Origin: Methanoculleus bourgensis MS2
GTDB taxonomy: Archaea > Halobacteriota > Methanomicrobia > Methanomicrobiales > Methanoculleaceae
Assembly: GCF_000304355.2 (NCBI RefSeq)
Contig: NC_018227.2
Coordinates: forward strand, 1,674,001-1,738,000
DNA: 64,000 bases
Direction of reading: 5' to 3'
Part shown: in pieces, positions 37,766 through 41,826 of the stretch
Layout of the letters: each line of letters opens with the position of its first letter
Numbering within the stretch: the stretch's first letter is position 1
The notes under the pieces: generated by a model
The model's database searches: none
What the model was told of the DNA's origin: nothing
What the model saw: the letters and a program-made list of their open reading frames with translations, nothing else
Translations under genes and position numbers: made by a program

Positions 37766-37895
37766 TCTCAAGGGTCGATTTCCCCTTTAACGAAAGGGGC
37801 CTGACTTTTCGGCCTAGCAGTCCTGGTAAAAAACGGGGTCGAAAAGGGGTGTTAAGGAGAAGTGTTTAAATTTAATGTGTTCGTATATATATTTG

Positions 37896-38300
37896 ATGAA
37901 ACAAGGTCTGCTTACCGACCGCCAGAAAGAAGTACTGCGGTATCGGAAAAAAGGGTTGACGCAGCAACAGATTGCAGATATCATCAAGACATCAAAAGCT
38001 AACGTCTGCACCATCGAGAAGGCTGCTCTCGAGAACATCGCACGGGCACGTGACACCCTCGAGTTCCTCTACACACTTGACGCTGCACACCTCTGCACGC
38101 TCAAAGGCGGCCTCGACCTGCTCAAGGCTCCCGAGATCATCTACACCGAAGCCGAGAAGATGGGGGTGAAGGTCAAGTATGACACGATCTCGCTCATCAA
38201 CAGGCTCAGGGACGCCAACCCCGACCGGTTCAGGGGCAGGCAGGTCCGCGAGGATGTGGAGGTCTACATCAACGAAGACGGCGACCTGTACTTCGGATGA
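37896..38300 (+). CDS. Tfx-family transcriptional regulator
   Basis: This 134-residue protein has an N-terminal sigma-70 region-4/LuxR-like helix-turn-helix ('MKQGLLTDRQKEVLRYRKKG', 'LTQQQIADIIKTSKANVCTI') and a conserved acidic C-terminal domain ('LKAPEIIYTEAEKMGVKVKY', 'VREDVEVYINEDGDLYFG'). This matches Tfx, described in Methanothermobacter as a DNA-binding protein acting at the fmdECB (molybdenum formylmethanofuran dehydrogenase) promoter. The ATG at 37896 gives the family N-terminus. AT-rich GTTTAAATTTAATG about 30 nt upstream is the likely promoter, so the transcript may be nearly leaderless. Confidence 0.85.
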   Translation: MKQGLLTDRQKEVLRYRKKGLTQQQIADIIKTSKANVCTIEKAALENIARARDTLEFLYTLDAAHLCTLKGGLDLLKAPEIIYTEAEKMGVKVKYDTISLINRLRDANPDRFRGRQVREDVEVYINEDGDLYFG

Positions 38301-38505
38301 CGTGGCTATCGGAGCGCGCACCAGCGCAGGTATCTGCCGGGGCGGGCAAGCCAGCGGTAGCCCTGCATGAGACTTACCACCCGGCGTGCGCCTGCAACAG
38401 GACAGCCGCAGCCCTTCGTTCATCAGCCCGGAGGTTCGGTTCGGGGAATCAGGGTATTTCTGCAACAGATATCCGTTTCCCCAAATTCCCGGGAAATCCT
38501 ATAGT

Positions 38506-38520
38506 AAGGTTTATATCTCA
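38506..38520 (+). promoter_or_regulatory. TATA-type promoter upstream of the structured region and ribosomal operon
   Basis: AAGGTTTATATCTCA contains a good archaeal TATA element. A start site near 38540 would place about 540 nt ahead of the rpl3 ATG. The region from 38301 to 38505 holds no gene I can support. Confidence 0.45.
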
Positions 38521-38589
38521 TTTTAAGTAATGATTAAGAAACCGGTCTGCTCTATCTCGCCGTGATTCCGGGGATAATGGGCGCTTTAT

Positions 38590-39060
38590 GTGCCTCTGAT
38601 TCCCGGTATGTCCCTGGTATCGCAGTATATGCGGATCAGAGACCCGCGGCGGGACGGCGCAGAAGGTACCAAGACAACGCAAAGGTCGAACCCTCCACAT
38701 GGAGGGCCGATGTCGATAGGAGTTGTGCTCGTCACAACGGGATGACAGGAGCTGGATCTGATCGAGACGTTGGGCCAACGCCGGTGCAGCGAGCCCGTTT
38801 CCGGGAACAAGTTTCCCGAAAGCGTCGAAGAGTCAGGATCTATTAGCGACGACTGGACGTACCCGGTGCACACCGGGCTGGTGGCGGGAGCGATAGGAGA
38901 CGATCGTCTCCCCCGTGCCTGCCGCCTCCATCCAACTGTTTCCCTTCACGCCGCGCCGTTCTGGCGCGTCGTTCGATGTCATGCCCGATACGGGTTCGCC
39001 GTAATGCCCGACCGTGCCGGCCCGTCCGGCAGAGGATTCGGTGCATCACACTACAGTTGC
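38590..39060 (+). ncRNA. candidate structured RNA or long structured leader upstream of rpl3
   Basis: Perfect short-loop hairpins follow each other: CCCTCC/GGAGGG (38691-38706), GTTGTG/CACAAC (38722-38738), CGTTG/CAACG (38768-38780), CGGGAA/TTCCCG (38802-38818), CCCGGTG/CACCGGG (38862-38877), GGAGAC/GTCTCC (38896-38911), GCGCC/GGCGC (38953-38967) and CCCG/CGGG (38984-38994). A longer stem, CTGAT/ATCAG, closes 38596-38639. This exceeds chance expectation for ~470 nt. The open frames here have no recognisable product. I did not find conserved RNase P RNA or SRP RNA core motifs. It may be an independent RNA or the operon leader. Confidence 0.45.
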
Positions 39061-39079
39061 ACGAAGGGTTGATTGAAAC

Positions 39080-40093
39080 ATGCCGAAGTATAACAGGCCA
39101 CGCAGGGGATCCCTCGCATACAGCCCGAGAAAACGGGCAAAGAGCCCTGTTCCCGGGTACGGCTCATGGCCGGAGTACACGGGAGTCCCGACAGTGCAGG
39201 GATTCGCAGGGTACAAGGTGGGGATGACCCACGTCGTCATGGTGGACGACCACAAGAGCAGCCCCACCGAAGGCAAGGACGTGATGGTGCCGGTGACCGT
39301 GGTTGAGGTTCCACCCATGCGGGTGGCGGGTGTGCGCGCATACTGCGAGGATACTTACGGAAAGCACGCGCTGACCGAGGCCTGGACAACCGACCTCGAT
39401 GAGGAGTTGTCCCGCCGCATCACCATCCCGAAGAACCACGATACCGTTGCCGCCCTCGATGCCATCAGGAAGGCGATCGGCGAAGGCAGGGTCACGGAAC
39501 TCTACGCCATCACCTACACACAGCCTGATGCCCTCACCGGCGTCCCGAAGAAGGTCCCTGACCTGATGGAGATGCGGATCGCCGGCGGAAGCCTTGACGA
39601 CCAGATCGAGTACGCCGCCGGGATCCTCGGGAAGGAGATTGAGATCACCGGGAACTTCGAGGCCGGTGAGTATATCGACGTGACCGCCGTCACCACCGGT
39701 AAGGGCACAGAGGGTCCCGTCAAGCGTTGGGGCGTCCAGGTCCGGAAGCGGAAACACTCCCGCGGCGGCAAGAAGCGCCACATCGGTAACCTTGGTCCCT
39801 GGCACCCGCACCACGTCAGGTGGCAGGTCCCCCAGATCGGCCAGATGGGCTACCAGCAGCGTACCGAGTTCAACAAGCGTATCTTAAAGATCGGCACCAA
39901 TGGCGACGACATAACACCCGCGGGCGGATTCCTCCACTACGGTGTTGTGCGCGGCCCCTATGTGCTGATCAAGGGTTCAGTCCCCGGGCCGAACAAGCGG
40001 CTGGTCCGGATACGGCCCGCGATACGGCAGGGAGAACACATTCTTCGCACGCCGGCGATCAGTTTCGTCAGCACGGAGAGCAAGCAGGGGTGA
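39080..40093 (+). CDS. rpl3: 50S ribosomal protein uL3
   Basis: This is a 337-residue archaeal/eukaryotic-type L3 ('[20 protein letters not shown]', '[20 protein letters not shown]', '[20 protein letters not shown]', '[11 protein letters not shown]'-like end). L3 binds 23S rRNA near the peptidyl-transferase centre and is an early assembly protein. It is the first gene of the long ribosomal operon, which continues without a convincing internal terminator to secY. rpl4 follows after 6 nt. Confidence 0.97.
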
Positions 40094-40099
40094 GCAGCG

Positions 40100-40849
40100 A
40101 TGAAGGCACAGGTTCGAACACTGACAGGTGAGATCGCCCACGAAGTCGATCTCCCGGAAATCTTTAATGAAGAGTACAGGCCCGATCTGATTAAGCGGGC
40201 TGTCCTCGCGCTCCAGAGCACCCGGTTCCAGCCGCATGGGACCGACCCCTACGCCGGCATGCGCACCTCGGCAGAGTCCTGGGGCAGCGGCCGGGGCGTC
40301 GCCCAGGTCCCCCGCATCAAGAACAGCAGCAAGGTGGCCAGGGTTCCGCAGGCAACCGGCGGGCGTGCAGCGCACCCCCCGAAGGTCGCAAAGGTCCTCG
40401 TCAAGGAGATCAACCGGAAAGAGAAGCAGAAAGCGCTCCGGTCCGCAATCGCAGCCAGCACTTCCCCGGACCTTGTCCGGGAACGCGGACACCTCTTCGA
40501 GGGCGACCTCCCGCTGGTCCTTGAGGACCGGTTCGAGGAGATCACCCGGACGGGCGATGTCATTGCGGCGCTCTCCGCTCTCGGTATCTATGCTGACGTC
40601 GAGCGGGCGAAGGCCAGCAGGAAGGTCAGGGCAGGACGCGGCACCATGCGCGGCCGCCGTTACAAGCAGCGCAAGAGCGTCCTCATCGTCACCGGGAACG
40701 AACCGCTCCGGGCGGCCCGGAACCTCGCCGGCGTCGACGCCGTGACGGTCAACCAGCTCAACACCGAGCTGCTGGCCCCCGGTACGCACGCAGGACGCCT
40801 GACAGTCTGGACGGAGTCTGCGATCAGGAGACTGGAGGAGTTCTCATGA
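40100..40849 (+). CDS. rpl4: 50S ribosomal protein uL4
   Basis: The 249-residue protein matches archaeal L4, with the exit-tunnel loop region '[20 protein letters not shown]' and '..[12 protein letters not shown]' and the C-terminal '[20 protein letters not shown]'. L4 lines the peptide exit tunnel and in bacteria also autoregulates its operon. Its stop overlaps the rpl23 start (ATGA), consistent with translational coupling. Confidence 0.97.
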
Positions 40850-41094
40850 TACTGAAATACCCCTTCGTTACAGAAAAAGCAACGATGATGCTCGAAGGCG
40901 AGAACAAACTCCAGTTTATCGTGCAGAGAGACGCTACCAAGCAGGATATCAGGCGTGAACTGGAGTCGGTCTTCGAGCAGGAAGTGAGCGAAGTCCGCAC
41001 AATGATGACCATGAAAGGTGAAAAAAAGGCCATCGTCAGGTTTGCGGACGAGAAAGCGGCTGAAGAGATCCTCAGCCGGCTTGGAATCATGTAA
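40846..41094 (+). CDS. rpl23: 50S ribosomal protein uL23
   Basis: The 82-residue L23 starts '[20 protein letters not shown]' and has the typical '[20 protein letters not shown]' strand. L23 lies at the tunnel exit, where it docks signal recognition particle and the SecY translocon, both relevant to secY in this operon. The start overlaps the rpl4 stop by 4 nt. Confidence 0.97.
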
Positions 41095-41106
41095 GGTGAG
41101 TGACGA

Positions 41107-41826
41107 ATGGCACATCGAATTACATCACAGAACCGCGGCCGGGGTGGCCCGACCTACCGTGCCCCCTCGCACCGGTATAAGGCCGAACTGCGACATGCCG
41201 GAACGAACGTCGCCCCGGTCTCGGGGCACGTCGTCGATATTGAGCACGACCCGGCCCGTCATGCGCCGATCGCTCTCGCCAGGCTCGAGGACGGCCGGAA
41301 GGTCTACATGCTCGCCACCGAAGGACTCGGTGTTGGGGATGCGGTCACCTGGGGTCCGGGAGCCGAGGTGAAGAACGGAAACACCCTGCCTCTCCGGGAG
41401 ATCCCGGTCGGGGCATACGTCTGTAACATCGAAGCCCGCCCGAACGACGGCGGCAGGTTCGTCCGCTCAGGCGGCGTCCAGGCTCTCGTCATCGGCAAGG
41501 CAGAGGACGGCAGGGTCGGTGTCCGGATGCCGAGCGGCAAGAATAAGTGGTTCAGCGGTGCCTGTTTGGCAACCGTCGGTATCGTTGCCGGCGGCGGACG
41601 GAGCGAAAAGCCGTTCGCCAGGGCAGGAAAGAAGTATCTCCACGTCAGGTCCTCCGCCGAGAAATGGCCTCGCGTCAAGGGTGTCTGCATGAACGTCATC
41701 GACCACCCGTTCGGCGGCGGCGGCCACCAGCACTGCGGACGGCCGAAGACCGTATCCCGCGGAACATCCCCCGGCAGGAAGGTAGGGCATATTGCCGCCC
41801 GGAGAACCGGCAAGTGGAAGAAGTGA
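41107..41826 (+). CDS. rpl2: 50S ribosomal protein uL2
   Basis: The 239-residue L2 shows 'SQNRGRGGPTYRAPSHRYKA' at the N-terminus, the central 'CNIEARPNDGGRFVRSGGVQ', and the C-terminal 'GVCMNVIDHPFGGGGHQHCG', where the conserved His near the peptidyl-transferase centre is retained. GGTGAGTGACGAATGG contains the ribosome-binding site. Length and order match other archaeal operons. Confidence 0.97.
   Translation: MAHRITSQNRGRGGPTYRAPSHRYKAELRHAGTNVAPVSGHVVDIEHDPARHAPIALARLEDGRKVYMLATEGLGVGDAVTWGPGAEVKNGNTLPLREIPVGAYVCNIEARPNDGGRFVRSGGVQALVIGKAEDGRVGVRMPSGKNKWFSGACLATVGIVAGGGRSEKPFARAGKKYLHVRSSAEKWPRVKGVCMNVIDHPFGGGGHQHCGRPKTVSRGTSPGRKVGHIAARRTGKWKK

Follow-up and report, generated by a model that had tools for sequence, protein, structure and literature searches.

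In this work we ask what occupies the DNA between a TATA element and the first gene of the main ribosomal operon in Methanoculleus bourgensis MS2. An initial annotation of the window (the whole analysed stretch of 64,000 nucleotides) had described positions 38590-39060 as an unexplained, hairpin-dense region that could be either a stable non-coding RNA or a long leader regulating the operon. The density of hairpins was borne out: the region contains eight perfect hairpins, none overlapping another, whose stems measure 6-7 bp and whose loops measure 1-5 nt (38691-38706, 38722-38738, 38768-38780, 38802-38818, 38862-38877, 38896-38911, 38952-38968 and 39015-39031), and ten when 5-bp stems are included. 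Dinucleotide shuffles average 0.66 hairpins of at least 6 bp and 2.26 of at least 5 bp, which makes the earlier figure of roughly one chance 6-bp hairpin in such a length a fair one, and none of 300 shuffles equalled the counts seen. The region is also the densest in hairpins among 135 equal tiles of the window, and the only one that dense.

Both landmarks that had been used to frame the region are present. The TATA element (~38510-38517) lies in a promoter (38500-38549, + strand) with a mean pairwise identity of 93% in the genus, compared with 56% in the intergenic DNA upstream of it, and the rpl3 ATG is found at 39080. At the distance from the TATA element that is usual in archaea, transcription would begin at ~38535-38545 and yield a leader of ~545 nt, and the predicted fold of this stretch (38535-39079) is 4.6 standard deviations below that of its own shuffles. 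The open frames that follow on the same strand were named by sequence and known gene order as rpl3 (39080-40093), rpl4 (40100-40849), rpl23 (40846-41094) and rpl2 (41107-41826), with the operon continuing beyond. The start region of rpl3 (AAGGGUUGAUUGAAAC-AUG, 39065-39082, +) is 94% identical in the genus; AAGGGUUGAUUGAAAC is the probable ribosome-binding site, and a similar AAGGAUUGAUUG precedes rpl3 in other families. The lack of a convincing open frame within the region was likewise upheld, since no forward frame of the leader stays open throughout the genus genomes compared and the open frames tested in it gave no Pfam match. On its upstream side the leader is adjoined, in nearly all Methanomicrobiales loci examined, by a gene for a Tfx-family DNA-binding protein (tfx, 37875-38300, +; PF14601 TFX_C, E 2e-31), which may share regulation with the leader or provide a useful synteny marker.

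For the centre of the region, the description "unexplained" proved wrong. A scan of the window against all Rfam models returned RF03135 (L4-Archaeoglobi ribosomal protein leader) and two tRNAs elsewhere, nothing more, and a search of 38300-39100 at E values up to 1 gave RF03135 only, in agreement with the initial failure to match RNase P, SRP or tRNA-like RNAs. The match covers 38758-38836 and the full length of the model (1-85), and its 49.7 bits exceed the curated gathering score of 34.5. Within the core element (38754-38840, +) the RF03135 structure comprises helices P1 (38758-38761/38833-38836), P1' (38766-38770/38822-38826), P2 (38772-38775/38793-38796, with an inner stem 38779-38781/38789-38791) and P3 (38802-38818). 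One of the perfect hairpins, 38768-38780 (CGTTGGGCCAACG), is left unsupported by this structure, its halves falling in two different covarying helices, P1' and P2. The element lies either directly before rpl3 or within the gene preceding rpl3, and rpl3 is the next gene after it in all element-bearing loci but one, a truncated locus; in the window it stands upstream of rplC, rplD, rplW and rplB (rpl3, rpl4, rpl23 and rpl2, 39080-41826), as expected of the family. Weak, sub-threshold second matches in two genomes, at L121 (G030) and L122 (G021), were discarded as false positives, having no rpl3 nearby and apparently lying inside an unrelated conserved coding gene. RF03135 goes back to a 2020 prediction by Eckert and Weinberg, who rated it as borderline, listed it for Archaeoglobi and proposed L4 as its ligand since L4 binds an established bacterial leader; the main text of their paper makes no mention of an overlap with a PF02598 gene (PMC7247131). 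Rfam 15 includes it among the families with a structure improved by R-scape (PMC11701678). The core helices P1, P1', P2 and P3 and the operon are the same here as in the published family; unlike the published element, however, this one is found in a gene-free leader of ~545 nt and is accompanied by additional hairpins (A, B and C, below).

In most relatives the element is embedded in a protein-coding gene. Outside Methanomicrobiales, the RF03135 match falls within a long open frame ending just before rpl3 in 30 of 30 haloarchaeal-type loci and in 18 of 18 others. Four of the element-bearing frames, including one from Methanomicrobiales, were scanned, and all belong to PF02598, a putative RNA methyltransferase (E 1e-49 to 5e-64). 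When 139 genomes of the phylum were scanned separately, PF02598 was found in 75, with three of these (G177, G226 and G255) showing no RF03135 match; in those genomes with listed coordinates that were compared by eye (e.g. G180, G172, G205 and G201), the RF03135 match falls inside the PF02598 match. Outside the order, no sampled genome was found to have the element but lack PF02598. Intact copies of the gene show constraint on synonymous codons at the element: the fraction of identical codons in haloarchaea is 0.80 within the motif and 0.90 immediately 5' of it versus 0.66 in the rest of the gene, and in other lineages it is 0.52 in the motif and 0.62 just 3' of it versus 0.36. Purely protein-coding conservation was rejected on this ground, as well as on that of the broken frame in the window. 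In the GC-rich haloarchaeal genes (loci L043-L072), the codons AAT and CAA are invariant at the P2 inner stem (AATTGC..GCAACAC), as expected if the RNA, and not codon usage, sets the codons. A second stretch of synonymous constraint was observed in the same loci at codon columns ~372-390 of the PF02598 alignment (0.84-0.91 versus 0.66); situated close to the gene's 3' end, it may reflect a further RNA element or an overlap before rpl3.

The core helices covary strongly both in genomes without the gene and inside the gene, so that compensatory base changes in relatives, on whose absence the initial annotation had been prepared to abandon its proposal, were indeed found. A covariance model, R1, was trained on just 13 sequences, all from families f5 and f6; it detects the element of the window at 56.1 bits, and recovers all 59 gene-less loci offered and all 44 gene-bearing loci. 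In alignments fitted to R1, which favours the structure somewhat, 92.0% of cells are paired across the 59 gene-less loci and 15 of 24 pairs have changed on both sides; the corresponding values for the 44 gene-bearing loci are 90.9% and 16 of 24. The covariation score of the gene-less loci is 0.378 versus 0.151 in shuffles (0 of 500 as high), and that of the gene-bearing loci 0.356 versus 0.153; these shuffles ignore phylogenetic relatedness, while control structures slid along the gene-less alignment, which retain it, score far lower (0.02-0.10). An alignment-free test in which the partners of P1' were swapped points the same way, with z values of -8.0 without the gene and -5.6 within it.

The conserved RNA is larger than the Rfam model, comprising two further hairpins on the 5' side (A and B) and one on the 3' side (C) across Methanomicrobiales, all on the + strand. 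Hairpin A (CCCUCC-ACAU-GGAGGG, 38691-38706) occurs with at least 6 bp in 33 of 37 gene-less Methanomicrobiales representatives, versus 16.2 expected, with 28 different arms; hairpin B (GUUGUG-CUCGU-CACAAC, 38722-38738) in 35 of 37 versus 6.7 expected; and hairpin C (CCCGGU-GCAC-ACCGGG, 38862-38877) in 31 of 37 versus 5.2 expected, with 23 different arms. Hairpin C was not found in gene-bearing loci outside Methanomicrobiales. Between the core and hairpin C, a highly conserved linker (GAUCUAUUAGCGACGAC, 38837-38853, +) is kept across the order and shows no covariation for a local stem, and is probably single-stranded; in intact copies of the methyltransferase gene, this stretch is translated into the protein motif R-I-Y/F-S-R. 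A hairpin just 3' of the core (P4, e.g. GGGUC/GACCC in Archaeoglobi-type sequences) had looked convincing by eye and was dismissed for want of covariation (z +1.6 and +0.3). A long-range helix is a candidate for closing the whole domain: GGGAUGACAG (38739-38748) is complementary to CUGUUUCCC (~38938-38946), both sides are nearly invariant in the genus, and family f5 has a different but likewise complementary pair, GGCUGACA/UGUUGGCUU, although the energy of the GGGAUGACAG/CUGUUUCCC helix is no better than in shuffles.

Conservation across the leader is uneven. In the genus (28 genomes), sequences are 90-96% identical over 38681-38880 and 65-76% identical in the leader outside this block, the promoter and the rpl3 start, compared with 74% at fourfold sites of rpl3 and 64% at those of the upstream tfx gene. 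The more variable parts contain further + strand hairpins, including a small one in the 5' part of the leader (GGCGC/GUGCC, 38580-38594; compensatory changes in the inner pairs, alignment A3 columns 18-32), one recognised by sequence and the chance test (GGAGACGAUCGUCUCC, 38896-38911), one that belongs to a longer genus-specific stem with many compensatory changes, several of its pairs having changed on both sides (CGCGCC-GUUCU-GGCGCG, 38952-38968; A3 columns 441-466), and one with mostly one-sided changes that keep the pair (UGCCGG-CCCGU-CCGGCA, 39015-39031; A3 columns 519-534). The way in which the block 38681-38880 stands apart from its flanks could be taken to indicate a separate stable RNA, cut from the leader or started within it and acting elsewhere. 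This we regard as improbable, given that the element is always ahead of rpl3 and on the same strand, that its family is a predicted r-protein leader, and that the rpl3 start is conserved along with it; nor can the RNA be a wholly new one, its core having been named by Rfam. Position, promoter, synteny in ~80 loci, the match to a predicted leader and compensatory changes thus support the leader alternative of the initial annotation, with no need to invoke a stable non-coding RNA that stands by itself.

How a gene-free leader came to contain a sequence that relatives hold within a gene is clarified by the distribution of the two across Methanomicrobiales. All 40 genomes examined from the family of the window, and 146 of 150 in the order, lack PF02598 even when stops are read through; neither at the locus nor anywhere else in the genome of the window is there an intact PF02598 frame, and the frames are broken in the genus. 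R1 nonetheless detects the element in 115 of the 150 genomes and in 26 of 35 genera; these include weak matches in family f4, among which L200 was confirmed ahead of rpl3. Four genomes retain the gene (L032-L035, in families f2 and f3), and inside its frame lie the element, hairpins B and C and, in L032 and L033, hairpin A as well. A profile of the genus leader matches these four loci at the nucleotide level (E ~1e-19) over the element only (profile positions ~180-380), and weakly at the promoter in two of them. On a tree of rpl3 proteins, parsimony requires four or more switches between presence and absence of the gene, three of them forced by well-supported branches, and 11 losses are counted on the topology if the gene was never regained. 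The element in the frames of gene-keeping relatives and this tree together imply that it pre-dates the losses and was afterwards kept by selection; had the gene been regained by transfer, fewer losses would be counted, but the conclusion that the RNA persists without the gene would stand.

A decaying methyltransferase pseudogene devoid of RNA function would also account for a sequence homologous to the gene with a broken frame. It is a most unlikely explanation, however, because the gene-less genomes show compensatory changes, identity is above that of fourfold sites, the element persists in 26 genera, and only the segment around the element has been preserved. We consider it quite probable that in most Halobacteriota the coding sequence of the upstream RNA-methyltransferase gene also contains a cis-regulatory RNA that belongs to the main ribosomal operon, and that in Methanomicrobiales this gene was lost repeatedly, with the RNA kept in place and freed from coding constraint in a ~545-nt leader. 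In the remaining 35 of the 150 genomes the element was undetected by R1, so that it is either not essential everywhere or has diverged. Several well-assembled genomes (G040, G045, G050, G060 and G065 of f2, genera g6, g11 and g14, and several of f4, genus g8) have neither a listed PF02598 nor a detectable element, and may have lost this control or replaced it altogether. A control site within a gene has an archaeal parallel in Methanococcus vannielii, where the site of L1 autoregulation reportedly lies within the regulated gene itself; as here, an r-protein control site overlaps a reading frame, but the protein, site and gene are others, and the homologous site in our case resides in an upstream gene for an enzyme, which was lost at a later stage. 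Literature searches turned up nothing relevant on PF02598, on the L1 site of archaea or on RNA elements whose genes were lost.

These observations bear directly on what the RNA does. Its location within the mRNA of the enzyme in most of the phylum might suggest that the PF02598 methyltransferase takes it as a substrate or regulates its own expression through it, yet the RNA persists and covaries in genomes without any PF02598, which contradicts this as a sole role and makes the idea very doubtful. Because the RNA was kept where the enzyme was lost, it does not serve the enzyme, and the partner that was retained is the ribosomal operon, which favours autoregulation of that operon. We accordingly judge it probable that ~38535-39079 forms a long 5' leader of the rpl3 mRNA with a structured cis-regulatory centre, most likely that of an autogenous r-protein leader. 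The centre (~38690-38880) would consist of the RF03135 three-way junction and the Methanomicrobiales hairpins A, B and C; when an operon-encoded r-protein (most likely L4, possibly L3) is in excess over rRNA, it would bind the leader and lower expression of the operon, probably through the rpl3 translation start or the stability of the mRNA. A scan of the leader found no intrinsic-terminator-like site and no sigma-70 promoter, and the lack of a terminator-like site favours translation or mRNA stability over early termination. A weakly supported pairing proposed by RNAalifold, which joins ~38597-38604 (columns 35-42) to the ribosome-binding region of rpl3 (columns 631-640), would provide a switch. 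Mimicry of 23S rRNA through a shared CGAUGUCG was rejected (local alignment score 18 versus 21.6 in shuffles).

The bacterial L4 leader of the S10 operon acts at both transcription and translation. The archaeal element is likened to this bacterial leader, which PMC7247131 cites, by proposed ligand and corresponding operon. The same leader RNA may instead respond to another sensor, be it L3 as product of the first gene, L23, L2, an assembly factor or a non-protein signal; this is a tenable though less probable alternative, as rpl3 is the nearest gene in every locus and L4 was proposed only for being the known ligand of a bacterial leader, set against the standing of L4 as the established ligand in the leader of the corresponding bacterial operon (PMC7247131). 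An autogenous leader sensed by an operon-encoded r-protein appears to us the simplest and likeliest account, with L4 the favourite by precedent and L3 the main alternative.

Few cis-regulatory RNAs are, to our knowledge, known in Archaea. What was known already is the RF03135 core, a borderline prediction named for Archaeoglobi alone; the larger RNA, the overlap with a gene and the loss of that gene go beyond Rfam. RF03135 gains strong covariation support both from loci with the gene and from loci lacking it, and its range now extends over the phylum Halobacteriota. This range takes in the genetic model Haloferax volcanii, which served as a control genome and matches both RF03135 and PF02598, so that the balancing of ribosomal-protein synthesis in archaea becomes directly testable. 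The double-coding arrangement comes with its own natural experiment, in which the gene goes and the RNA stays, and it illustrates how annotation confined to intergenic regions misses elements lying in genes. If the history presented here is true, a regulatory RNA has survived the loss of its host gene on many occasions.
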